Shown piece by piece: positions 719 to 40,793 of a stretch of DNA of 64,000 nucleotides (within the stretch, counting starts at the first letter, position 1; each line of letters starts with the position of its first letter). The notes below the pieces were generated by a model. The model was not told the DNA's origin and did not search any database. It saw only the letters and a list, made by a program, of their open reading frames with translations. The position numbers and the translations under genes were made by a program. Source of the stretch: Telopea speciosissima (lineage: Eukaryota > Streptophyta > Magnoliopsida > Proteales > Proteaceae); contig NC_057919.1 in the NCBI RefSeq assembly GCF_018873765.1, positions 68,380,984 to 68,444,983 on the forward strand. The letters run 5' to 3'.

Positions 719-6174
<5,456 letters not shown>

Positions 6175-13965: not shown

Positions 13966-15223
13966 TGTAGCTCTAGATAGGAGAAGGATCCTACTAGAGG
14001 CCAAGCAATAGGATCTAAAAAAGAGGGTTGCTGGTTCGAATGGGCAGGATTAGGATTTTAGGTCAATTTCTAGGGTTAGGTTTGGGGAATGGGGATAATT
14101 TTTATATGGTAATGCTAGGCAGGTCTAGGGGAAGCTAGCAGTGAAGATTTGAACAAGATTTGAACAAAATTTCAAATTGCAAAAAATTAGGGTTAGGGTT
14201 TCGGGTTTTGGGTTTTAGATTTTAGGTTGAAATTAGGGCAAGGGGCTAAGGTCGAGTTTTGTACTGATAGGGTATACCACTCGGCCAAGGTATGAAGTCC
14301 AAGTGATGGATGTAAGTGTTAGTTCTGAAAATTCTAGGGTTTTAGGATTAATGGAGGTTAATGGGGAATTAGGGTTTGGGTGGTTGGAAGGGGCTGAGAT
14401 GAATATCGAGTGGAGGGGATGCTAAGGGGAAACTGTGGTCCAAATCTGATGAAATTCTGATGAGGGGTTAATGCTGGACAGGGTTAAGAGTAATTAGGGT
14501 TTATGAAATTTAAATAAAAAACAAAGAGGAATCAATTTGGGGGGGGGGGGGGAAGTAGAGGGTTAGAAACAGAATTGGGTTTCAAACTTACAGTAGAATC
14601 CGTTGGCAGCAAGCTTGGACAGCAGAGAAGGATAGAACCATCTTCAATGGAGATCCTCCCAGCCGTCACGGCATAAGGAGTTGTTGGAGATCCACCTACC
14701 CTTTCCACCTTGATAGAACCTCAAGGATGAACACTCTCAAGGAGCTGCAGCAGCAACAAAAGCAGCAAACACGATTTTTTTTTTAAATTCATAAAACTGT
14801 GAGGGAGCCTCCTACGATTTAATACTTATAATAAAAGGCTAATAGTTAAATCCTAATAAAATCTAAACACTTCCCTCACTTAAATCGTGGAAGGGTAGAA
14901 ATAAACAACTTAAAACCAATTAAAACACTTAAACTAAGAAGATTCCTAAGTAACCAATAGGATATAAGACCCTATTAGTCAATAGAAACATTTCACTTAA
15001 ATTGGACCAGTGGTTCAACAAGTTCAATTTAAAACACTAAAACATGAAAAATAAACTAAGTATTGGGCTAATACCGTATGCAACCTATGTACCCCTAGTT
15101 TAGGCCCATTAAACTGGCCTATTACATAGAAAACCCTTGGGATCAAAGGCCCAACATATATATATCTCAATCCTAGACTTATTTCTAAAGAAATAAGCTC
15201 ATTTCGATGATGAATCTGCATCA
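13966..15223 (-). mobile_element. LTR-like repeat, minus-strand copy
   Basis: On the minus strand it starts TGATGCAGATTC (15223) and ends CTCTAGAGCTACA (13966), matching the copy at 11538-13680 at both ends and in between (CTTTGATCCCA, TTGCATACGG, ATCAAGGTGGAAAGG and others). It begins six bases after the (GTT)n end of the LINE. No target duplication is clear. A 14-base G run lies near 14540. The two copies face each other across the last 280 bp of the LINE. Confidence 0.65.
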
Positions 15224-18400: not shown

Positions 18401-21400
18401 TTCAAGTGATGCTAACGCCCCTGATATTGATTGAAGCTTTGGTTGTGGGGTTTTACAAAAGTTCAGGACCAAGAATTTCAAGTGGAGATCTTAGTTGGGA
18501 AGTTTCTGTTTCTCAGGAATCTGATTTCTTATGTCATCACATTCATTTTGGGGATTGATAGAGCAATTTTTTGAGCTTGCTTGAGTCAGGAAAGCAGAAT
18601 CGATTGTTGAGTTTATCATCCTTGATTTTGATCCTTACGTTTTGGGTATTAAAAGATGGGGAACAAGTGCCTCGTATGTAGAAACAAAGGTGCTTGGTGA
18701 GAATGAAATTGAGATTCCACCTGGGCACAAAGGTCTTTTTTTGGATGCTGTTTTTTCCGTTGAAGCAAAAGAATCAAATATCACTTTGAAGCAACAAAGA
18801 ATTATGTAATGGAGTTAACGGAAAAATTATTGTTCCCTGGCTTTTTACTGTTGTGCATTAGCATTTCAAGGGATATGTATATGTCATGAGATTTGAGGTT
18901 CACAACTTCCCTGAGAGCTTCATTGGTAACTCCTATAATTGTTTTCCGGGCTTTCTTTCCATAGGCAGGTTTTTATGGCAATACACTCTGTAAACCCTAA
19001 AAATAAGTGGCTTTCTAGACAATGGTTTTCCAAAAACACTAGTTTTAGGATGTCAGTTGCATAGAGATTGATATTGGTGATCGCTAAAAAGTAAAATCAG
19101 AGATCTGTTAAGGACTCTCTCTCTCTCTCTTGGAGGTCTGCTGAGAATATATTTCATGTGTTAAGTTCCTTGGATATTATTGTTCTCATCAGAACGGCTG
19201 GGTCAATGGAATAGTTATTATCTTCTTATTCTTCTCCCTCTCTTTGCTGTGTATTGATTTTTATTTTTATTTTTTTTATTTTTTTTTTTGGGGGGGGGGG
19301 TGTATGGTTTTGATCTGCTTGATCGAGTTGCTTCTGCTTCTTTTTTCTGGTGGAAATGCAAATGGGCGTATGTGGTTAGGTACTGAAATCTTGTTAATTT
19401 TCACCTGTATGTACATAGCCTAGAGTGTCTAAACCTATCGAAACCTCTGTAATGTTCTTCAAATTGACCTATGGTCCTATATGTATCTTTAGTTAAGCAT
19501 GCTTTAACGCTGCTCTATTATGTCTATTTATTGGTCCATTGATCTTTTAGATCATTGGGGATTCTCTAGTGATTATGTAGGTGTTTCTTGTTTTAAACTC
19601 TCTTTTTTGTTTATGTGATGACTATCTATTCTGTGCAAGATTAGTCCTTTCTTTTGCTGATTGATGAACTGGCATATATTAAATGTACTAAAGTGATTAT
19701 ACTGCTCCCCTACATCATCACATCAATCTATTCTTCTGCTGCAGAGTGATTTCTTGCTTAGGAAGTATTCTGTTATTGTTCTGGATGAGGCTCATGAGAG
19801 AAGCTTGAATACTGATATACTTATTGGAATGCTTTCCCGTATCATACAAATCCGCCAGGTAAGATATTAAAACCACTACTATTGGTTGGCACAGTGCAGA
19901 GTTAAAGTTTATGTCCAGTCTGGCTTATTAATTATGTTTCTTATGATTTTATGCTTCCATGACAGAGGTTATACGAAGAGCAGCAAGAGAAGGTTCTTTC
20001 GGGAGTGAAAATCAGTCCTGAGAATTTAGTATCTCAGTTAAAACTTGTACTTATGAGTGCAACCTTGCGAGTTGAGGACTTTGTTTCAGAAAGGAGGCTA
20101 TTTAATGAAAACCCACCTGTTATAGAAGTTCCAACCAGACAATTTCCTGTTACTGTTCACTTCTCAAAAAGAACCGAGATCGTGGACTACATGGGCCAGG
20201 CTTATAAAAAGGTCTTGTCCATTCACAAGCGGCTTCCACCTGGTGGAATACTCGTTTTTGTCACTGGGCAGAGGGAAGTGGAATATTTGTGCCGCAAACT
20301 ACGTAAAACTTCAAGGGAGCTGACTCAGAAATTTTCCAAGCAGAAGGAGAGTGAGGCCACGGCTGTCTTGGATGTAGATACTAGTGACCAGGGAATTGAC
20401 ATGAAGGATATCAATGAAGCATTTGAGGTGCATGGGTCATCAGACCACCAGAAAACTGACAGATTTAGTTCATGTGATGAGGATCATGATGTTCTTGATG
20501 AGGAAGAGTTCGACTCCTCTGATGATTTGGGAACAGATAGTGAGTTGGAAGTTGATGGTGATGTTGAGGGTTCACTGAAATATGAAAATCATGAGAAAAA
20601 TGGTAAGCATTTTGATGTTCTTGGAGAACCTGGAAGCCTTGCCTCATTGAAGGCTGCTTTTGCAGCTTTGGCCAGCAATAATGCACCCGACCCAACTTCT
20701 GAGGGGAAACTGGATTCTCCCATCACCCCTGGCTCAGAAGGATGTTTGAACCAATCTACTTCCACTTCTACGAAAAAATGTGATATGGCTGATGGTCCTT
20801 GTGCTAGTGCAATGTGTGTCCTGCCTCTTTATGCCATGCTACCTGCAGCAGTACAGCTTCGGGTATTTGAAAAGGTTCCTGAAGGAGAGCGGCTTGTAGT
20901 GGTTGCTACCAATGTGGCTGAAACCTCCTTAACTATTCCAGGCATAAAGTATGTGGTTGACACTGGAAGGGAGAAGGTCAAGAACTACAATTCCTCCAAT
21001 GGTATGGAAACATATGAGATTCACTGGATAAGCAAGGCATCTGCTGCCCAACGTGCAGGAAGAGCCGGCAGAACTGGGCCTGGCCACTGTTACCGTCTCT
21101 ATTCTTCTGCTGTTTTTACTAACATATTTTCTGACTTCTCTATCCCTGAAATATCCAAAATACCTGTTGATGGTGTTGTCCTTCTCATGAAATCAATGGG
21201 TATTGATAAGGTGGGTTTAATTCATTTTCTAAGGCTTGACGTTTCTTTACAGTGGTTGTCGTGCAAAAGCTTCATATATTATGCTTCTTGGGTGGGAATA
21301 TGCTGAAGATTTTAAACATCCATGTGAACACCCATGGGATTTTGGGTGCAGATCACCTAAGTCAAGATCAACCTAGTCAGACGGTCAAAATAATTAATCA

Positions 21401-23178
21401 TTGATGAATTGTTTAAGCTGGTCCAATTATTTTAATTTGGGGTGGGAGATCTAGGTAGCACCTGTAACATCTTTTACTTTGTTTGCACCGTAGTTTTTGT
21501 CTGGTCCATATGGCGGGAATATATGCAGTTTGCAATCTGCATCATTTTCCACTGAAGCATTCTCTTATTAATCTTGAAGAATTATTTGCCTTGTAGTTTT
21601 TATCTTAATATCCAGCAACAATAATTTCATCTTTATTAATTCTTCTGATTGGCTTATTCTTCCCCCTTGCTTTCATGTTCTATTCTCCAGGTTGCAAATT
21701 TCCCATTTCCGACTCCCCCTGAGGCCACTGCCTTGGTGGAAGCTGAGCGTTGCTTAATGGCTCTTGAAGCACTTGATAGTCAAGGAAGACTTACACCCCT
21801 TGGAAGGGCCATGGCAAAGTATCCCATGAGTCCTCGTCACTCTCGTATGCTTCTTACAGTTATTCAAATTATGAAGAAAGTCCAGAGTTATCCAAGGGCA
21901 AATCTTGTTTTTGCTTACACAGTTGCTGCAGCCGCAGCTTTGAGCTTGTCAAATCCTTTTATTATGCAATTTGAGGGAAGCCACAATAATTCAGCTGATT
22001 TGGATAGAGATGATAAAACTGATACTGTTGATACCCCAAAGATTCTGGACAAAGAAGAGAAACTGAGGCAGAAGAAACTGAAAGAAATTACTAAATTGGC
22101 CCGTGCAAAATTCTGCAACCCTAGTAGTGATGCTCTGACAATAGCTTATGCTTTGCAATCATTTGAACACGCAGGGAACCCAACAGAGTTCTGTAAAGAT
22201 AATTCATTACACCTGAAAACCATGGAGGAGATGTCCAAGCTAAGAAAGCAGCTACTCCAATTGGTATTTCATCAAAGCTCTGTTGTTGTACACGAGGATT
22301 TCTTGTGGACATATGGGACTGTTGATGATGTAGAACAGGCTTGGAGGATTTCCTCCAACAGGCATCCTCTATTACTAAATGAGGAGGAGCTCTTAGGACA
22401 AGCTATCTGTGCTGGCTGGGCAGACAGGATTGCCAAGCGCATCAGATTAGTTTCAGTGTCATCAGATAGAGACAGAAAAGCTAATGCACCACGATATCAA
22501 TCTTGCATGGTTAAAGAAACCGTGTTCCTCCATCGTTGGTCATCCGTTTCTCGAACAGCTCCTGAGTTTCTGGTCTATAGTGAACTTCTAAACACAAAAC
22601 GACCATATATGCATGGAGTGACAAGTGTGAAACCAGATTGGCTTGTTAAATATGCTGCATCTCTTTGTAGTTTCTCTACTCCACTTTCAGACCCAAAACC
22701 ATTTTATGAACCCTCAGGTGACCAAGTGTTTTGCTGGGTGAGTCCAACCTTTGGTCCCCATTTATGGCAGCTACCATTGCATAGTTTGCCTGTCAGTAAT
22801 GGTGTGCATAGAGTGACCGTATTTGCTTATGCTTTACTTGAAGGCCAAGTACTGCCTTGCTTAAGATCTGCACAGAAGTTCATGGCAGCCCCTGCTGTTA
22901 CCATTTTGAGGCCTGAGGCAGCAGGTCAAAGACGGGTGGGGAACCTTATAAATGAACTGATGGCTGGTGCAAGGTCAATTGATAGTCGTGCCATGTTGAG
23001 AAAGATCTGGAATGAGAATCCCCAAAAATTGCATTCAGAGATTCGGGACTGGTTTCAGGAGAAATTTCATGATCAATTTGAAAAGCTTTGGGCACAAATG
23101 CATCGTGAGGTTCTTTTGGAGTGTCAAGAACTTTTTCCCAAGAGTGTGAAGAAAGAAAAGAGGAAAAGTAGAGATTAA
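15452..23178 (+). CDS. DEAH-box RNA helicase, DHX37/Dhr1-like (FASCIATED STEM4-type)
   Basis: A nucleolar ATPase of this family remodels U3 snoRNA/pre-18S complexes in small-subunit assembly. The eleven exons are 15452-15540, 15987-16059, 16174-16242, 16320-16369, 16486-16546, 17047-17436, 17557-17802, 17937-18167, 19745-19858, 19966-21210 and 21691-23178 (stop TAA). All phases agree, giving 1351 aa. An in-frame TGA at 15434 upstream of the ATG fixes the start. Motif [11 protein letters not shown] is near residue 314, Ia TQPRR near 348, II DEAH near 417, III SAT near 472, [13 protein letters not shown] near 757 and [15 protein letters not shown] near 803. These are followed by the winged-helix/ratchet region ([17 protein letters not shown]) and the C-terminal OB-fold domain. 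A Lys/Arg-rich N-terminus and an acidic Asp/Glu/Ser insert (about 585-650) between motifs IV and V fit the Dhr1 branch. The gene carries large TE-bearing introns, but the reading frame is intact. Confidence 0.93.
18585..18809 (+). other. unidentified coding-like ORF inside a helicase intron
   Basis: A 74-codon open stretch ending in TAA has balanced, protein-like composition (for example [20 protein letters not shown] and [10 protein letters not shown]). It lies in the 1.6 kb intron between the helicase exons ending at 18167 and starting at 19745. It has no ATG at its beginning and is preceded by an in-frame stop. I do not recognise the family. It may be a captured gene fragment or an old pseudogene piece, or chance. 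Confidence 0.3.
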
Positions 23179-27539: not shown

Positions 27540-28873
27540 GATATACTAAAATACATCTGAGGTCCCGTAAATTTGTGAAAAAAGATGTTTAGAATACCCA
27601 TTCTTTGAAAATGGACGTTTGGGATGCCTCTTTAAATTAGTTTTAGATTTCAAAATAACATATTTCCAAATTTACCATCTGATCAACTCCACTCCCACCC
27701 CTGATCCACCTTCACCTCCCCTTCCAACCCTGAACCCAACCACCATTGTCGCCGTCAATTTAGCCGCAACCCACCATGCACCCTACCCCTGCCCAGCGCC
27801 ATCTTTTCCCTGCCGCAAATCTCCCAACCAACTCCTCCCTTTCATCACCGCCCTCCCCTACAAAATGTATCCCATGTTTTCGAACTCGGCCAGGAACAAA
27901 TGTCATCGATGTAGCACTGAAATCCAATTCATCATCAACACTGCGGATTAAATCTCTGCAGCCCTTTTCTTCTCCACCTGTAAATCCGACAGTCACGCCA
28001 AAAGCCTCCCAATGAGGCAGTGAAAGGAATTGCAAATTGTAATGCAAAGGGCAAAGACCAGTCTTCCTCGTTGTCGCTGCCGTAAACCACCGCTGCTCTG
28101 CAAGAAAATCTTGGAGAACCCATCTGCAATGGCTTCCCCTTCTGCAACCTCAATAATCCCTCTGCCACTACAGCTTACAAATTTTCTTACCTTCGTCTTC
28201 TTTTCACACGCCTTTTTTCTTCTTAAGTTACTTTTCCAGCCACTTTGCTACATTAGAATATGCGATTCGCACACCTCACTGGATTATTGTGAAGACCACC
28301 TAATTCTCAGTAAACTTTGGATTATCTCAAAACTTCAATCTTCATTCCTTCCACTCCACACCCCCCAAAAAAAATAACGATTCAATAGGGTAAGGAAGAA
28401 AACTCAAAATCACAACTGGTTTATGTTTGAGATGGTCATGTCAGTCTTCGTTCCCTTTTAGAGATGGCACGTCTCTAATCGTAACCGTCGTCCTCCACCT
28501 ATCACTTTGTAATCTGATTATGCTGCTGCTACCTGCTACGCCTTCTAACTACAAACTAACGAACTCCCCTATTGTTTCTCTCCCCCTTGATTGTGTTTCC
28601 TGTTAGAACATTCATGCTCAACCTGCAAACGAAGCTTGAGATGAGTTCCAGCAGGGGATGGGAACAGAAGTGTTGTGGCATTTGCAGATGGGCTGCAACA
28701 GAGGAACGACGGTAGCGGGGTGGAGGATGTGGTAATCGGTGGTGTTTGAAATACCCAGACACAGACTTACAATGGTAAAATTGGAAATAATTCTGATTTT
28801 GAACAACACCTGTTACATAGGAACCCCAAACATCCATTATGCAAATTTAGGGCACCTCAGATTTGATTTACCC
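27540..28873. mobile_element. long-terminal-inverted-repeat element with gene-like GC-rich interior
   Basis: About 130 bases at 27545-27680 (CATCTGAGGTCCCGTAAATTTG and following) are the imperfect reverse complement of about 28740-28873. The paired landmarks include ATCTGAGGT, GTTTGGG and TTCCAAATTTACCAT. The interior, about 27690-28720, is markedly more C- and G-rich than its surroundings, with long open frames on both strands and a Pro/Ser-rich plus-strand translation. That resembles a captured host-gene fragment, as in Pack-MULEs. The ends resemble GGGTAAAT. No clear 9-bp target duplication was found, so Mutator-like origin is inference. Confidence 0.55.
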
Positions 28874-29051
28874 TTCAAAAGAAAATTAGTAAAAGACTGT
28901 TTCCGATTCTTGAATTCAAATGGTTTTAAGAAGTCTGTTATACACTTACCTCATGGTACATTTCTTTACTCCGTAGCGGTGATTAAAGAATTTCTTTTGT
29001 CTACTGAAGAGTTAGAACGATTTCAATAATTAGAGTGGTTGCTATTCTATG

Positions 29052-29129
29052 TAGGGGTGTCAACGGATCGGTTTAACAAAGCAAACCCCAGTCCAGTGAA
29101 CCACTTATTAACAAAGCCCATTTGTACAT

Positions 29130-29160
<31 letters not shown>

Positions 29161-29914
29161 GGAAAAAAAATCTCTGTAAAGAATTGTGGCCTACACCAAC
29201 ACTCCCATCAGTCTATCTCTCTCCTCCCCATATGAAAAAACACCTCTATCACCTTGTTATAAAAAAGAAAGAGAGATAGACTCATGAAAGTACTAACATA
29301 AATCATACTCCATACAAAAAACTGTTCCCCTTTAACCAGGTCGGGCTGACCCTACAATGGCCAAAGCCTCAACCAAAACCCAGCCTAACCCTATCAAAGC
29401 CAACAAAATGCTAGGCCTTTAAACGGATCAGATTCGGGTGCGATACAAATCAAATGTAATCGGTTTCTGATATATCCTGATTGAATACGGATACCTCCAA
29501 ATTTCAGATGGATTCGGATGCAAATCAAATTCAGATTTTCGGCCATCAATATTCACTTCTGTCTTATGTAAACCAAACCTTCCTCCCCCTAGTAGACACA
29601 ATTCACTCTCAATCCATAGTTTTAGATCATGATTCTCTTTTCTTCATTTTCTAAAAATTGTTGAATTTTCAAAAACCCCAAAAATCGTTATTTACTTAAT
29701 TTTTTATAAGTATTCAGATTCAGACTTTTATCTAAATATTCAGATTTTTTTCTGAACATCTCCAAACGAATATGGATGCCCCTAAACAGATACAAATGCA
29801 GATCAAATTTGGATTTTCAATTATCCATTTACAACTCTACAAAATACTAAACCAAGTACTAGCTAGGTTGGGTTAAGACCGAGTCTAGATGGTCATGTTT
29901 CTTTGACACCCATA
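29052..29914. mobile_element. hAT-like element (TAGGGGTGTCAA ends), host of a nested copy
   Basis: The left end TAGGGGTGTCAACGG and the right end's reverse complement TATGGGTGTCAAAGA are inverted repeats of the hAT type. The 8-bp flanks ATTCTATG and ATTTTAGG agree at six positions. It contains an (AT)n tract at about 29129-29160 and a nested element at 29412-29839. No transposase ORF. Confidence 0.5.
29412..29839 (+). mobile_element. hAT-like MITE, TAGGGATGTAAA family, copy 1
   Basis: A 428-bp element homologous along its whole length to 34220-34635 and to the inverted copy at 51736-52160. The shared core includes CCTTCCTCCCCCTAG and CAATTCACTCTCAATCCATA. The ends have decayed from TAGGGATGTAAACGGATC. 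The 8-bp flanks are CAAAATGC (29404-29411) and CAAAATAC (29840-29847), one mismatch. No coding capacity. Confidence 0.8.
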
Positions 29915-31266
29915 ATTTTAGGGATTCTAGCCTTCAAGGTTTTTGGTACTTAATTCAATGGATTGTGAAAATTGATTTTGGGATTTAATTCAATGGCTTA
30001 TGAAAGTTGTGGTTTTCAAGTTGTTTATGATCAAAATAAATATAAAAAAGATCAAGTTTCCGTCTACTCATAGAAGATGGGATCTCATTCACCCAAGCAA
30101 AGGAGATTGCAAAAATCTTTTTGAACGAACTATATCATTAAGAAGGATTTGTGAAATTTAAGATGGTGGGGTTAACCATCCTTTAGGGCAAACGAGGGGG
30201 TGTTTAGGGAAAACCCGCGTTAGTGTTTTTCAAGTGGGGCAATGTGGTAAACATTGTTTGTGAACAGGAAAAGAATTTTCTATGGGACATTGAAATACAC
30301 CAATTGGGATTGTAGTCTTTGCACTTGCCTACTCTTGTGTAGGCAAGTGTTGAACCAAGATAAGATGTTCCTGTACTGTAGCCTGTAATTAATCACATGT
30401 TATTCTTTCTATGTTCTTGGGTGAGGAGGGGGGGGGTGGTTCTTGATTAACAATCTGTGTTCAAAAGTAGTAGTACATCATAAAAAAGTAAAAAACCAAC
30501 TTACCATGTTGCACTGTCTTCATACAGTAAATTTTGTACCTCGTGTAGAATTTAATTGAAATCTTGAAGCTGAGAACACAAAATACATTCTTACCAAATA
30601 ATGAGAACATTGCCTAGAAGCATGTCCAACTAAAATAAATTCTCGATTTAAATTTCTTAAATTCATTTTTAACATTATTGTTAAAAATCGTTTAACAATG
30701 ATGCTAAACAAGGATGTGAGAAATCTAACTCAAGAATATATTTTTGTTGGATCATGAATCAAGACAATATTATCATTCTCAAGTAAAAATACATTCTATT
30801 TTCTAAAAGAGAATGGAAACGCATTACAAACATAACCTAAGTTTTCTTCCAACACCCCAAGATGAATATATCTCAAAATTTTCCATCGGAACGGAAGCAA
30901 TCCCATTAGGGTTTCAAATGATTAACGCAGTCAATGAATGGGTCTTAAAAAAAACTCAGAATCGAATCAAAGAATATGCCTACGACTTTGATGTTTTATC
31001 CAAAAACAAAAAAAAAAAGGCGCCATCGAATCATCAGGAACTGTGACTCCCGCTTCATAATCCTATTAGCCCATTCTTGAAACCTTGGTTCCATGAGATT
31101 GTTTAGGAAGCAATACTAGAAAACAAAGACACCTTATAAAACCAAACAAAGCCCCAACCAGACCATCCGCCCCAAAAAGAAAAAAAAAACAAACACTGAA
31201 GAAATTCGAGATTCATCAAATCCATCAAGGGGGGAGGGGGACGGAAAAGGAGAAGGAAAAAAGGGA
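29915..31266. other. intergenic DNA and probable snoRNA transcript downstream region
   Basis: No gene recognised. A G run lies near 30428-30437. The ORF at 30813-31046 is on the strand opposite the U15 snoRNA and in AT-rich DNA, with no recognisable family. The minus strand below 31266 may still be part of the U15 precursor. I looked there for further box C/D RNAs and found no convincing pair of C and D boxes closed by a stem. Confidence 0.45.
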
Positions 31267-31352
31267 TCTCTCTCAGACAAATGCCTCATTCACATCACGG
31301 TTTTGAATGGATGTTATCAGACTCGTCATCAATTATTGACATCACTGAGAAA
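31267..31352 (-). ncRNA. U15: box C/D small nucleolar RNA U15
   Basis: An 86-nt RNA on the minus strand, too short for ORF calling. In order it has a 5' stem UUUCUC, box C AGUGAUGU (31346-31339), D' box CUGA, C' box CGUGAUGU, D box CUGA (31276-31273) and 3' stem GAGAGA. The two stems pair over six base pairs with one G-U. The guide before D (AUGAGGCAUUUG) pairs with CAAAUGCCUCGU of 25S rRNA. The guide before D' (GAUGACGAG) pairs with CUCGUCAUC, seven bases further on. By the D+5 rule these direct 2'-O-methylation of the last A of CAAA and of the G in CCUCGUC, the positions equivalent to yeast 25S Am2281 and Gm2288. U15 is the known guide for this segment in plants and animals. The rRNA sequence is from memory. 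Confidence 0.85.
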
Positions 31353-31557
31353 CCCCATTTCGTTTTTAGAGAAGATCAGAAAAAAGATTAGAAACTAACC
31401 AAAACCTTACAATAACAAAACTCAAACAGTAGCAAGAAAATAAGAAATGGATCGATAAGAATTGCATTAAACACACAAAGAAACAAATGCCTAACGGAGA
31501 AAGCGATCAGCCTATTATAAACTCTTTGTAATCCAGAATTGGAGTCGTCCCTGGCTA

Positions 31558-31590
31558 ATTTATAGAGTTAGAGATCGAAATTTAGGGTTT
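31558..31590 (-). promoter_or_regulatory. telo-box and TATA box upstream of U15
   Basis: On the minus strand AAACCCTAA (31590-31582), a perfect telo-box, is followed 17 bases later by TATAAAT (31564-31558), about 205 bp upstream of the U15 5' end. Telo-boxes with nearby TATA are characteristic of plant promoters for snoRNA clusters and ribosomal-protein or translation genes. The order and orientation fit Pol II transcription of a U15 precursor. Whether U15 lies in a host-gene intron is open; I found no coding exon downstream. Confidence 0.6.
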
Positions 31591-32210
31591 CTCATACGTT
31601 AAAATTACAAATATCTCCTTACCCTTTCAACTACTGCCGTTTCTTTGGGACGGCGATGGCTGAACCGGAAAAGCAACGGCACTTGGGCAATGGACCAATA
31701 TAAGGGTGACATTCAGTCTGTTAGGGCCAGTTTTAGTTCGGTTTCATTCGTTTCGGTGTGAGAATGGGTGAATCCAAGACCAATCCAACAAGGTTTCATC
31801 GTTTTGGTTCCAGTCCGGTTTGAGTTTGGTTTGACATGTACATGTATCAGTTTCTCATCGGGTTATATCGGTTTGGGTTTGTTTTGATCCGATTTTAAAT
31901 AAATCATAGGAGTGTGAATTGGTCAGTCCGAATAGGTTCGGTTAGGCTTAATTGGTCCCCCCTACTTTGGGATCTCGCACCGTAACTGGCTCGATTAAGT
32001 AATCTATCTTCATAGGCTAAGCATGTTCTTATTTATGAGCGGTCAGTCGAATGCTATTCTATAATCGAACTTATACTAATTAAAGTAACCTATAAAACAG
32101 GCTCATACTAAATAGGCTATAACCTGGCTATGCAAATTTGATCCATATAGTTCCTAATGAAATTCAATTCTTTGGGATGAAAACAAGAAAGAGAGAATGT
32201 TCCTCTCCGA

Positions 32211-32520
32211 TTAATGGCGAAATAAGTAAATCTCAAATTTATTTGGATCTACAGAACACACAGCAGCACTACTAATAGTACCATAAAAGAGTAGTCTATC
32301 TTGAGTGCTGAGCCTCTCTCTAATAGCAAGCCAAAGAATCCATTTTGTTCGAAGAGTGGATTGGGCTTTCCAAACCCATTGCCAACGGACGGTGTTAAGA
32401 TCAGAAAGACTCCCTTGAGCCTCGATCTCATACGCTGATTTGGTATCGAAAACCCCGCAGTTAGAGTGCACCCAAAACCAAGTATCCTGAGCCGACCTAT
32501 ACCGTTGGATTGGGGGACTT
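32211..32520 (-). mobile_element. L1-type LINE fragment, zf-RVT zinc-binding region
   Basis: On the minus strand the translation reads a zf-RVT-like segment: GVFDTKSAYEIEAQ, then VRWQWVWKAQSTLRTKWILW, then RERLSTQDRLLFYG and a Cys. This is the domain that follows reverse transcriptase in plant L1 LINEs. The rest of the element is absent or unreadable on both sides. Confidence 0.65.
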
Positions 32521-32929
32521 CAATCTCATTTGACATGCATATGATGATATTTTGAACAATATAAATGACATTGATTTTGTATTCCATTCATTTTTTGGCC
32601 CATCAACTTCATAGTTTGATAATATTCAATTATCAATTCTTTGTTTTTACTCGGGCCATAATTCTTTATAAACAGCCTACATAATGTGAGATGATAAGTT
32701 AAGAAAAGGTATATTTGGGAAATTTATGGAGTAATTGGGATAAAACAAATAGTCCATAAATACACTTAAATTTATCGGTCCTTAAACGTGTCAGGCTCGG
32801 TCAGGTACCTATCAGTCCATCTCCTTGCACCATAAACGACATGTTTAGCTAACATTTCATACTAGTTTCAGGCTTTAACTGATCGAGACAGATCGGTCCT
32901 ACCAGTGCGGGCTAAGAATTGACACCGCT

Positions 32930-33083
32930 AGTTACGGTGTCTTATCAATTTCGATCTGGTCTTGTTTGGGTTCAATTTCGCAAAACCCTCAATACAAAGT
33001 CGATCCAATAAGCTTCATTTCGATATCAGGTCGGGATGGTTCGGTCCAGTTTCACTGGTTCAGACTAGGCTTTGACACCCCTA
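32930..33083. repeat. terminal part of a TAGGGGTGTCAA-type hAT-like repeat
   Basis: This ends TTTGACACCCCTA at 33083, the reverse complement of a TAGGGGTGTCAA terminus. It shares CGGTGTCTTATC, CAAAACCC, GATCCAATAA and CAGTTTCACTGGTTC with 33700-33807. A left end may lie near 31905, in which case the L1 fragment sits within it, but this is uncertain. Confidence 0.4.
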
Positions 33084-33439
33084 GGCCAATAATTAAGTGA
33101 GGACGAAAGAGAGGCCCCATCACAACCTGTGATCATTTGGGAAGTTTTGATTCAATGGACTTGGGGATCTTGCCACAAGAGTGAGGCTTTATTAAATTTT
33201 TACTATTTTATTAACTAGAAGAAGAACTTTACCAAAAAAACACTAGAAGAAGAAAGCAAAGGCAAAAAATGAAAATAAACACGAATAATGGAGGGTTCAA
33301 AAGACAGTAGGAGAATTGTCTGGATGTAACCGATTCTGATTCAATTCGGATTAAAATCTGCTAATTGAACAAATTCAATTCTGATTCTTGAAACCATGGG
33401 TCTATCCTTTTCCTGTTTTCCAAATGGAAAAGAGCGCTC

Positions 33440-33807
33440 AAAGGGTTTCAGTGTCAATCGGTTGGTTTGGTCCGGTTTCAGTAGTGAGTCCAAAACATGA
33501 TCCAATAAAGGTGCATCAGTTTCGATTTAATTCCGGTTTTGTATTGGTATACTATCGCAGTTGGTTTTGGTTTGCCGTGTAAATATATTCATAAGTATGG
33601 GGGGAAAATTGTATTTTTAATGAATTTCGGACTGGTATCAGTTTCTTACCGAGTTATATCGGTTTCAATCTGATTTTTTAAGTTCAGTTCGGTGTCTTAT
33701 CGATTACAGTGTCACAAAACCCCAATCCGAAATATGATCCGATAAACTTATATCGGTTTCAGTCAGTTTGGCTCGGGTTCATCAGTTCGAGCTAGGTAAC
33801 ACCCCTA
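33440..33807. repeat. TAGGGGTGTCAA-type hAT-like repeat, second copy
   Basis: It begins near GTGTCAATCGGTTGG and ends AACACCCCTA (33807), with many repeats of the word CGGTTTCAG between. Its right 110 bp are homologous to 32930-33083. The target duplication is not readable. It has no coding capacity; the open frame here is a product of the repeat words. Confidence 0.45.
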
Positions 33808-36285: not shown

Positions 36286-36322
36286 TGGTATCATCCGCCG
36301 TTGACTCACGTCACCGATCATC

Positions 36323-39300
36323 ATGGTTCACTCCGATGACTCAACCACCATTGCTTCCGGCAACGCCTCATTGTCCCTAGTCTCTCCCACCAATATTGTT
36401 TCTCTTCTCCCTATCAAACTTAACAGTACTAACTACTTGCTGTGGAAGTCTCAGTTTCTGCCATTACTCCACGCACATGATCTTTACGGCTTCGTTGATG
36501 GCAGCAACGTTAGCCCTCCACCAACTCTTTCTTCTTCTCCAACCTCTGCCACCGCTGTTCCCACTCCAAACCCTGCGTATACTCTCTGGCGCAGGCAAGA
36601 CCAAATTATTCTTAGCTGGATCATATCCTCTCTTACCGAAGGTGCACTTGCACAGATCGTTGGACTCTCTTCTTCACACGCTGCATGGACCACACTGGAG
36701 CACACTTCTGCGTCTCAGTCTCAAGCACGCATCATGCAACTCAAATATCAACTTCTCCAGATAAAAAAGGGAACTTCCACCATGGCCGAGTATCTTCAAC
36801 GAGTCAAGAATCTCGTTGATAACTTGGCCGTTGTTGCCCACCCGGTTGCTGAATCGGATGTTATACTTGGCATTCTCCGTGGCCTAGGACCTGATTATGA
36901 GGCGTTTGCGACTTCTGTCACCACTCGAATTGATCCGCTGCCATTGGATGATTTCATAGGCTTACTTCTAAGTCAAGAAATCCTTAAGGATCAACGCAAT
37001 TCTCATCAAGAGCTACCAACAGTGGAGGCCAATATGGCTGCCAAGACCAATACGTTAGCAAATGGCGCCTATCGTGGAAGGAATTCTTCCTCCAACAGAG
37101 GTCGTGGCCGTGGGTACCAATACAGCAATTATCGTGGTCGTGCTCCACAAAATGGCAACCAGCAACGTCCTCCATTGCTGCCAACTCCTACTACTTTATG
37201 TCAGATTTGTAACCGTACAAATCACACTGCCAGTACCTGCTTTAACAGGTTCAATCCTAATTACCAGCCTCAAGTTGCACCACCAGCCACTCAAGCCACT
37301 GGTGATGCCACTCCATCAACTCCTGCTGCGTCGTGTGACTATGCGTGGTATCCAGACTCTGGTGCCTCTCATCATATCACTTCTGACATGGCAAATATGA
37401 ACATTAGCTCACCATACACAAGCACTGATCAAGTGCGAGTTGGTAATGGGGCAGGTTTGACCAGAGAACACATTGAAAATTCAACACTTTCAACTTCTTC
37501 TAAATCTCTGTTATTAAATAGTGTTTTACATGTTCCAAGCATCACTAAAAATTTACTGTCTGTGAGTAAGTTTACTAGTGATAATAGTGTTGCTGTTGAA
37601 TTTCATCCTAAGTGTTGCTATGTGAAGGATTTACAAACGGGGAAGATCCTACTGCAAGGCACAACTGAAGCAGGTCTCTACAGACTCAATAAGGCAGATT
37701 CGCCACTCTTATCTTCAAATAATTTTCAGCCAAGTGCACACATTGGCGAAAGAGTTTCCAAATCGATATGGCATGATCGGCTTGGACACCCATCTTTAAA
37801 GTGTTTAGATTTTTTGCTGCGCTCCTCCAGTCTTCCAGTTCAGGCGTCAAAGTCCTCCTCTTCAGTATGCATTTCATGTCAAATGGGAAAATCACACAAA
37901 TTACCATTTGAGGCTAGTCACAATAATGCAAAGTTTCCATTCCATATTGTGCACTTCGACATCTGGGGCCCATCTCCTACTCCATCCGTCCAAGGTTATC
38001 GATATTATATATCCTTTTTGGACGATTATAGTAGGTTCACTTGGATTTATCCACTTGTAAGCCGTTCAGAGGCATTGCCAATTTTTCTTCAATTCAATTC
38101 TCATATTGAAAATTTGTTCAATTGCACAATCAAGACCTTCCAGTCAGATGGGGCAAAGGAATATCAAGCATTTGATTCATTCTTCAAACAAAAAGGAATA
38201 AATCATCAATACTCATGTCCTCACACTTCTGAACAAAATGGAATAGCAGAGCGCAAGCATCGCCATATTGTGGAGACAGGCTATTTTCTAATGGCAAGGG
38301 CTTCTGTACCCTTACAATTTTGGCCAGTCGCTTTTGAAACATCAGCCTATTTAATAAATCAGCTACCAACACCAGTCCTACGGAATCGGTGTCCCTTTAA
38401 AGTTTTATTTGGGTGTGACCCGGATTACAAGCTCCTTCGCACTTTTGGCTGTGCATGCTATCCCTGGCTAAGACCCTATAACAAAAACAAGCTGCAATAC
38501 CGGTCCACTCAATGTATATTCCTTGGATACAGCAGTTACCACAAAGGCTACAAGTGTTTTGACCCTACCATAGGGCGCACTTATGTTTCAAGGCATGTAA
38601 CGTTTAATGAGTGCCTATTTCCTAATGCCAACAAACCACTACCAAATCCAAACCCAAACCGAATGACAAGTCCACTCATCATCACTAGTGACAATGTCAT
38701 AACCCAGGCCCATCGTCCTTCACCAACTCCAATTCCAAATCCAAATAACCCGATTCCAGCTCTAAACGAGCCTGGTCCACAATCACTACAAAACCAACAT
38801 TCACCTAGCCCATCCAACAGTTCGTCTCAGCCTGATATTACTCAACTAGTATCACCAATTGAAGCCCAAACTGAGGCCCAACCAGTACCACAACCAAAAG
38901 CCCAGCCAACACCACAAGCCGAGGTCCAATCTCAGCCAGCCCAACGTACCATGGTTCAACCTCAACATGTGTCTCATCCCATGGTCACACGGCTTCGATC
39001 AGGTGTCACCAAACCTGTGGAAAAACTGAACCTAATGGTCACCAAACATCCTATTCCCACAGCCCTTGTATCCGCATTAGCCTGCCCAGATGATGAGCCC
39101 ACCTCTTACACTGCTGCAAGCAAAGATCCAAAGTGGAGGAATGCAATGAGTGAAGAGCTAAATGCCTTACTCAAAAATGGGACGTGGTAGTTGGTTCCAT
39201 TTAAGCCATCAATGAACCTAGTTGGGAATAAATGGGTCTACAGGGTCAAAAGAAATTCAGATGGGTCAATAAACAGGTATAAGGCACGGTTAGTTGCAAA

Positions 39301-40793
39301 AGGATTTCACCAAAGAGAAGGGATAGACTACTTTGACACCTTCAGTGCTGTTGTCAAGCCTGCGACTATTCGGACCATTTTAACTGTTGCAGTGTCCAAT
39401 GGATGGGTGTTGCGCCAATTAGACATTCAAAATGCATTTTTAAATGGTGCATTACAAGAAGAGGTGTTTATGACTCAACCATAAGGGTTTGTCGATCAGG
39501 CCTGACCCACTCACGTCTGTCATCTAAAGCGAGCCCTATGTGGTCTAAAGCAGGCTCCACGTGCGTGGTCGCATCGTTTGGGCCAATTTCTTATTCATCT
39601 TGCCTTCAAGTCATCCGCAGCTGATACAGCTCTATATGTCCGCAACAAGCAGAAGGACACTTACATACTTGCTGGTGTATGTCAATGACATAGTTGTGAC
39701 TGGCACAAGCACTGTTGTGATCCCACAGTTAATCAAGTCCCTAGGAGAAGAGTTTGCCATTAAGGACTTGGGCACCCTAAACTATTTTCTAGGGGTTGAA
39801 GTGGTGCGCACACCAGGAGGCCTACATCTCTCTCAGTCCAAATATACTTTGGATCTGCTAAAAAAAGCCCAAATGGATGGAGCAAAACCGATGCCTACTC
39901 CAACATCAACTCAGCCTCTTGTTCCAACAGCTGGGTCACCATTTGATGATGTCACACTATATAGGAGCACCGTTGGAGCACTACAGTATTTGACACTGAC
40001 AAGGCCGGATATAGCCTTTGCAGTAAACAAGGTTTGTCAATTCATGCATAGCCCAACAACTGATCATTGGGCTGCAGTGAAGCGCATACTTCGCAACCTA
40101 AAGGAAACAATTGGTCTTGGAATTCAAATTCGGCCTTCAACCACTCTCAAGTTGGTTGCATTCAGTGATGTTGACTGGGCAGGAAGTCCCCATGATCGAC
40201 GATCAACAAGTGGGTATTGTGTCTATCTTGGACACAGCTTAGTCTCATGGAGCTCCAAAAAGCAACACACAGTAGCACGTTCTTCCACAAAAGCCGAGTA
40301 TAAGGCAGTGGCAAATGCAGCAACAGAATTGATGTGGCTTCAGCAGCTGACAAGTGATCTTGGCATCGGCTCATCTCCACCAGTACTATATTGTGACAAT
40401 ATAGGGGCCACTTATTTAGCAGCCAACTCGTTATTCCATGCACGCACAAAACATATTGAAATTGATTATCATTTTGTGCGTGAACATATGGCGGCTAATA
40501 AACTCTCCATCCGATTTTTGCCCAGTAAAGATCAAATCGCAGATGCACTCACAAAGGGCCTCCCTGGTCCACGGTTTCGGTTGTTCAGGGACAAGCTCAC
40601 AGTGTGCACCCGACCGTTTCGCTTGAGGGGGAGTGTAACAGATCAGAAAATGGATAACCACAATTCAAATTTAAATTCAATTTTGAATAAGTCAGTCAAC
40701 CGTGGGAGGACTCCTACATTGGTGGAAGTATCCAACTGTGAAGCAAATGAGTTTGATAACAACTCAAACTCCTTCAATGTACAACGAATGTAA
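36323..40793 (+). pseudogene. copia gag-pol polyprotein, inactivated
   Basis: ATG 36323 opens a 955-codon frame. It holds a gag domain with an RGG-rich stretch, a CCHC zinc knuckle near residue 293 (CQICNRTNHTASTC), protease DSGA near 345, the integrase HHCC domain, and the D,D-35-E core (VHFDIWG, FQSDGAKEY, QNGIAERKH). The frame stops at TAG 39188, just as reverse transcriptase begins. Two more stops follow (TAA 39482, TGA about 39505), then a frameshift near 39675. A third open part, read to 40793, covers the RT catalytic box and RNase H (LVYCDN, HIEIDYHFVREH, ADALTKG). The RT box reads YVND where copia elements have YVDD, so a catalytic Asp is Asn. The copy cannot make a working polyprotein on its own. 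Confidence 0.93.

Follow-up and report, generated by a model that had tools for sequence, protein, structure and literature searches.

In the 64,000-nucleotide stretch of Telopea speciosissima DNA analysed here (the window), the minus strand carries at 31267–31352 what is very probably a gene for the plant U15 (SNOR75) box C/D snoRNA, with two targets in 25S rRNA that are described below. We hold this identity with confidence because the match to the SNOR75 family, the base pairing with rRNA, rDNA from the same genome, the paralogues and the Arabidopsis literature all point to it. The features of the locus and of its presumed promoter are listed in the direction of the minus strand.

31583–31590, minus strand: telo-box AAACCCTA, with an equivalent in the C5 copy and a single-base difference in C1
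31559–31564, minus strand: TATA box of a presumed Pol II promoter, unchanged in the C1 copy and with an equivalent in the C5 copy
31267–31352, minus strand: U15/SNOR75 box C/D snoRNA, predicted mature RNA of about 83–86 nt (RF02539, 66.8 bits; boxes and guides; three further genome matches, of which two exceed the cut-off)
31347–31352, minus strand: 5′ arm of the terminal stem, UUUCUC, which pairs with GAGAGA at 31272–31267 (one G–U)
31339–31345, minus strand: box C, GUGAUGU, 6/7 to RUGAUGA
31322–31330, minus strand: D′ guide GAUGACGAG, which pairs with 25S CUCGUCAUC and predicts a Gm (Arabidopsis Gm2289; extracts of PMC8053127)
31317–31320, minus strand: box D′, CUGA, as read from the sequence
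31304–31312, minus strand: third (accessory) element AUCCAUUCA, which pairs with 25S UGAAUGGAU (core UCCAUUC in 4/4 copies and in the Rfam consensus)
31292–31298, minus strand: candidate box C′, GUGAUGU, 6/7 (identical in C1; C5 has GUGACGA)
31278–31287, minus strand: D guide GAGGCAUUUG, which pairs with 25S CAAAUGCCUC and predicts an Am (Arabidopsis Am2282; extracts of PMC8053127)
31273–31276, minus strand: box D, CUGA, exact
31267–31272, minus strand: 3′ arm of the terminal stem, GAGAGA, which pairs with UUUCUC (one G–U)

Among 4,227 Rfam families, SNOR75 (RF02539, a plant C/D snoRNA) was the only one to exceed its cut-off in the window, and it did so once, in a whole-length match on the minus strand from 31350 to 31268 that scored 66.8 bits (E 9.4e-12) against a gathering cut-off of 50 bits. 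This bears out the first-pass annotation, which had called a U15 box C/D snoRNA on this strand. The check that it proposed against the Rfam U15 model gave a divided answer: the plant model SNOR75 was matched, whereas the animal U15 model SNORD15 (RF00067, 146 positions) stayed below threshold at the locus, with 21.4 bits where 75 are required. The name U15 is therefore correct for the gene as a plant U15, but not in terms of the SNORD15 model. When compared with the SNOR75 consensus, the window copy shows no change in either guide or in the accessory core AUCCAUUC, but it differs in its D′ box (CUGA against CCGA), in a 3-nt deletion and in the C′ region. The description of the gene as ‘hidden’ was overstated, as the family is already in Rfam and in print, although it is correct that an ORF search misses the gene. 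There is no second snoRNA over cut-off among the 16 Rfam matches (to E 10) in 28500–33500, where SNOR75 alone passes, and so no sign of a snoRNA cluster; no tRNA genes were found in the 64-kb window, and no repeats of 30 nt or more overlap the snoRNA gene (29000–33500). Elsewhere in the window, a gene encoding a DEAH helicase that ends in a C-terminal domain of the DHX37 type lies about 8 kb from the snoRNA (19963–23178, plus strand), and this we take to be a ribosome-biogenesis factor, whilst the frames of a Copia-type LTR retrotransposon (gag, integrase and RVT_2) are found in two pieces at 36305–40793 (plus strand).

The C, D′, C′ and D boxes and the six-pair stem that had been claimed for the 86-mer are all present. 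Box C agrees with RUGAUGA at six of seven positions, box D is exact, and the terminal stem UUUCUC/GAGAGA is made up of five Watson–Crick pairs and one G–U. The predicted fold of 31260–31360 has an energy of −28.4 kcal/mol (z −2.23; equally stable folds arose in 7 of 200 shuffles), and in this fold the ends pair in a register two bases off that which lies beside box D.

The D′ guide GAUGACGAG forms nine Watson–Crick pairs with CUCGUCAUC, and the D guide GAGGCAUUUG forms ten with CAAAUGCCUC, or 12 when extended to include one G–U, in agreement with the earlier claim of adjacent antisense elements to 25S rRNA; neither guide falls below the nine continuous pairs that the first-pass annotation had set as a limit. 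Counted from each box, the guide nucleotide five places upstream lies opposite the G in CUCGUC (D′) and the A in CAAAUG (D), which are 7 nt apart; the same five-nucleotide count thus returns the A and the G that the first-pass annotation had proposed as targets. These nucleotides would correspond to Arabidopsis A2282 and G2289, an equation drawn from extracts of PMC8053127 and from the 7-nt spacing, and not from a numbered 25S sequence. The statistics used a 94-nt segment of 25S rRNA that, across the targets, is in accord with the eukaryotic LSU consensus of Rfam. When the 86-mer was shuffled 20,000 times by dinucleotides, no shuffle had three 9-pair stretches to this segment, whilst four had two such stretches and 484 had one.

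The genome itself contains 16 rDNA matches with 87–99% identity. Three rDNA copies were read: the targets are intact in L015 (at the place of L009) and base-changed in L010 and L011, which were taken for decaying rDNA copies. In L015, the three targets stand in order at 3478–3489, 3485–3493 and 3510–3518, inside a match to LSU_rRNA_eukarya (Rfam), and the alignment to a plant 25S rRNA that had been suggested as a check therefore finds them intact and in order in the same genome. L015 is an interrupted rDNA copy, from which 3,941 rRNA bases, a part of the rRNAs, were searched with the snoRNA; over these bases single 9-pair matches occur at chance level. Eight matches had at least nine pairs with no more than one G–U, five of them elsewhere than the targets and two of those five free of G–U, one of these two exact matches being that of the third element with 18S rRNA. 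Of all eight, those of the D and D′ guides are the only ones to end beside a box.

The third element was absent from the first-pass annotation. It pairs with the rRNA at 9/9 positions (AUCCAUUCA with UGAAUGGAU), starting 16 nt past the end of the D′ target. The UCCAUUC core is common to the four genome copies and the Rfam consensus; the full nine pairs are formed by the window copy only, with eight in the C1 copy and seven in the C5 copy. The nine pairs of AUCCAUUCA with UGAAUGGAU supply the extra pairing that belongs to a plant U15, and the element fits the ‘common extra pair’ of Arabidopsis U15, which is placed on the top loop (extracts of PMC8053127), the two being compared by description and not letter by letter.

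In Arabidopsis, 25S Am2282 and Gm2289 have been found by RiboMeth-seq and assigned to the D and D′ guides of U15 (extracts of PMC8053127). In the Telopea gene the pairing itself is observed, and the methylation of both 25S nucleotides we infer from Arabidopsis. One difference concerns box C′, which was not recognised in Arabidopsis U15.1a according to the Figure 2 legend of the same paper, whereas the window copy has GUGAUGU at this place, one mismatch from the motif. Indeed, the C′ boxes of the three copies over cut-off read GUGAUGU, GUGAUGU and GUGACGA, each one mismatch from RUGAUGA, and under the rather doubtful clamp scheme given below a recognisable C′ box in these copies would support full D′ activity. 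Somewhat against the assignment stands another survey: for helix 71 of Arabidopsis, Gm2278 and Cm2283 are named under another numbering, and the A is not mentioned in the extracts of that source (PMC8351944). Extracts from the main texts of PMC9175010 and PMC7464842 do not mention U15.

Human 28S Am3764 is the equivalent of the D-guide target, and in yeast the sites of snR13 (L2280/L2281) and of snR75, which marks L2288, are equivalent to the plant U15 sites. Yeast thus employs two separate RNAs for sites that one plant U15 serves. In animals, SNORD15 (U15) has been linked to human 28S Am3764 (extracts of PMC8393311). Yeast snR13 has been reported to mark L2280 and L2281, two adjacent nucleotides, from one guide, whereas the window U15 has two guides; mutating the extra pairing of snR13 lowers both modifications (extracts of PMC5389607). 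This stimulation of methylation by extra base-pairing resembles the arrangement in the window U15, which also has an additional, third element that pairs with rRNA.

Sequences that match the rRNA target were also encountered outside plants. Four contigs (L001–L004) filed under bacterial metagenome-assembled genomes, three of a tubeworm endosymbiont and one of a Planctomycetaceae, contain a short piece of 28S rRNA from TAGCCAAATG, the snoRNA target, joined to other sequence; in viral contigs the rRNA target was not found. In L001, the sole contig tested, the 28S piece is joined to a reverse-transcriptase element, which has an RVT_1 frame and a weak zinc finger. Whole L001 and L003 gave no Rfam match at gathering threshold, and the end of L001 alone matched LSU_rRNA_eukarya. 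The junction at TAGCCAAATG is one that we take to be the R2 site, and the four contigs look like R2 retrotransposons of contaminating eukaryotes.

Upstream of the snoRNA, a telo-box and a TATA box had been claimed at about 205 bp and in the right order, and they are indeed present at 31590–31583 and 31564–31559, the TATA box ending 207 nt above 31352. Relative to the 5′ end of the Rfam match, they lie 240 and 214 nt upstream, respectively. A telo-box followed by a TATA box across a gap of 10–30 nt occurs once in the window, against a mean of 0.01 in shuffles (seen in 1 of 100). Telo-boxes alone are not rare (nine in the window against 3.5 expected), and four copies of AAACCCTA lie within about 310 bases at 14194–14502 (minus strand). 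In the TeloSII rule for plant snoRNA promoters, a telo-box and a Site II element are found within 1 kb of each other in any order, with a TATA box downstream (extracts of PMC4660826). The nearest upstream Site II of the window gene is at 32362–32367, 1,017 nt from the snoRNA and 772 nt above the telo-box, and so within the 1 kb of this loose rule, yet this says little because there are 72 Site II elements in the 64 kb. The promoter block 31541–31610 has two matches in the genome, itself and the C1 copy, and is therefore not a repeat. The best support for the putative window promoter comes from the C5 copy, where the telo-box, TATA box and Site II lie 258, 229 and 224 nt upstream of the Rfam 5′ end, all within 40 nt.

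The genome search covered 823 Mb in 1,287 contigs, and 55 of 275,520 first-look candidates were scored, so that the copy number is a lower bound. At least four SNOR75 matches were found: C5 (73.9 bits), C1 (69.3), the window copy (66.8) and C2 (41.9), the first three of which exceed the 50-bit cut-off. About 2 kb of the window locus (30885–33148, minus strand) recurs at C1 as a duplicate with 79% identity by BLAST, perhaps as the result of a whole-genome duplication. In global alignments with gaps left out, the window and C1 copies are identical at 79/82 positions of the snoRNA (1 gap), 58/64 of the TATA surroundings, 174/197 of the upstream part, 157/178 of the leader, 147/159 of the sequence that directly follows the snoRNA (12 gaps) and 119/141 of 31027–30886. 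The snoRNA is more conserved than the upstream part, the leader and 31027–30886; the sequence directly after it comes close to it in conservation, so that the snoRNA does not stand out sharply. The C1 telo-box has one base changed, and its TATA box is unchanged. Between the C5 copy and the window, the BLAST matches consist of the snoRNA and four short ones elsewhere, with none to the window promoter or leader. The C2 copy (L008 1501–1584) is damaged in that box C is lost; it resembles the C5 locus, and the 700 nt upstream of it contain neither an exact telo-box nor TATAAA nor a Site II element.

Two further readings concern how the gene is expressed, and either can hold together with its identity as U15. 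The snoRNA might be released from an intron or the leader of a longer, perhaps protein-coding, transcript, and an ATG frame does begin downstream at 31094 (MEPRFQEWANRIMKRESQFLMIR...), whose counterpart in C1 reads MEAAFKESADRIRNPESQILMIR before a stop and closes with GTAAG, a sequence resembling a splice donor. This frame was considered as a first coding exon and rejected, being retained as a rival only: with 55/69 positions identical it ranks last in conservation among the seven stretches compared with C1, and the window lacks the donor-like GT. At C1, a 92-aa frame lies about 1.2 kb past the snoRNA, and for this frame the window offers no convincing counterpart (best E 1.7). Its region gave no Pfam match (114 aa), and a likeness of the frame to 6-phosphogluconolactonase is unsupported by any search. 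With a TATA box and a telo-box directly upstream of the snoRNA as well, release from a host transcript is judged unlikely. The other reading is that the window gene is a segmental or whole-genome duplicate that is no longer transcribed, with C5 and C1 doing the work. At least two other genome copies exceed the cut-off, the window and C1 loci are duplicated over about 2 kb so that one could be redundant, and the fourth copy (L008) is visibly damaged. The boxes, both guides and the TATA box of the window copy are nevertheless intact, and its snoRNA differs from that of C1 at just 3 of 82 aligned bases, which makes a silent copy quite improbable. That the locus is a chance string resembling a C/D snoRNA, whose boxes are short and whose single 9-nt rRNA matches are common, is scarcely credible in view of the Rfam E value of 9.4e-12, the 0 of 20,000 shuffles and the presence of paralogues. 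On balance, a functioning U15 gene that is transcribed from a promoter of its own is the most likely reading of the locus.

A scheme for such a gene can be proposed, in which transcription and processing are predicted from the sequence. RNA polymerase II would start just past the TATA box and yield a precursor with a leader of about 180 nt, and trimming to the terminal stem would leave an RNA of 83–86 nt. Once bound by the C/D core proteins, namely fibrillarin, Nop56, Nop58 and the 15.5K protein, this RNA would direct 2′-O-methylation of the A in CAAAUG of 25S rRNA through its D guide, and of the G in CUCGUC through its D′ guide. The rRNA targets of D and D′ overlap by three bases, CUC, and the two full duplexes therefore cannot form together. 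The third element, which would lie in the D′–C′ loop, should be able to pair with UGAAUGGAU in either guide state and could hold the rRNA during an exchange of guides; what has been published for Arabidopsis is the extra pair, and not the exchange. A bolder and rather doubtful extension is that the third element acts as a shared clamp, which stays on the rRNA as D and D′ alternate, such that one visit of the snoRNP methylates both nucleotides.

Taken by its structure, rRNA pairing, paralogues and promoter-like elements, the locus is probably a real, functional plant U15 gene, apparently intact and an ordinary plant gene for a small RNA that places two methyl marks on the ribosome. The family, its targets and the extra pairing are already in print for Arabidopsis, so that beyond annotation the scientific gain is small, and what is added here is one further plant U15 gene. 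It illustrates that non-coding genes to which an ORF search is blind can be recognised by careful inspection of the raw sequence. A plant U15 gene and two usable paralogues are now available for comparison, and this U15 gene could help to settle whether the two methylations are coupled through the accessory pairing.
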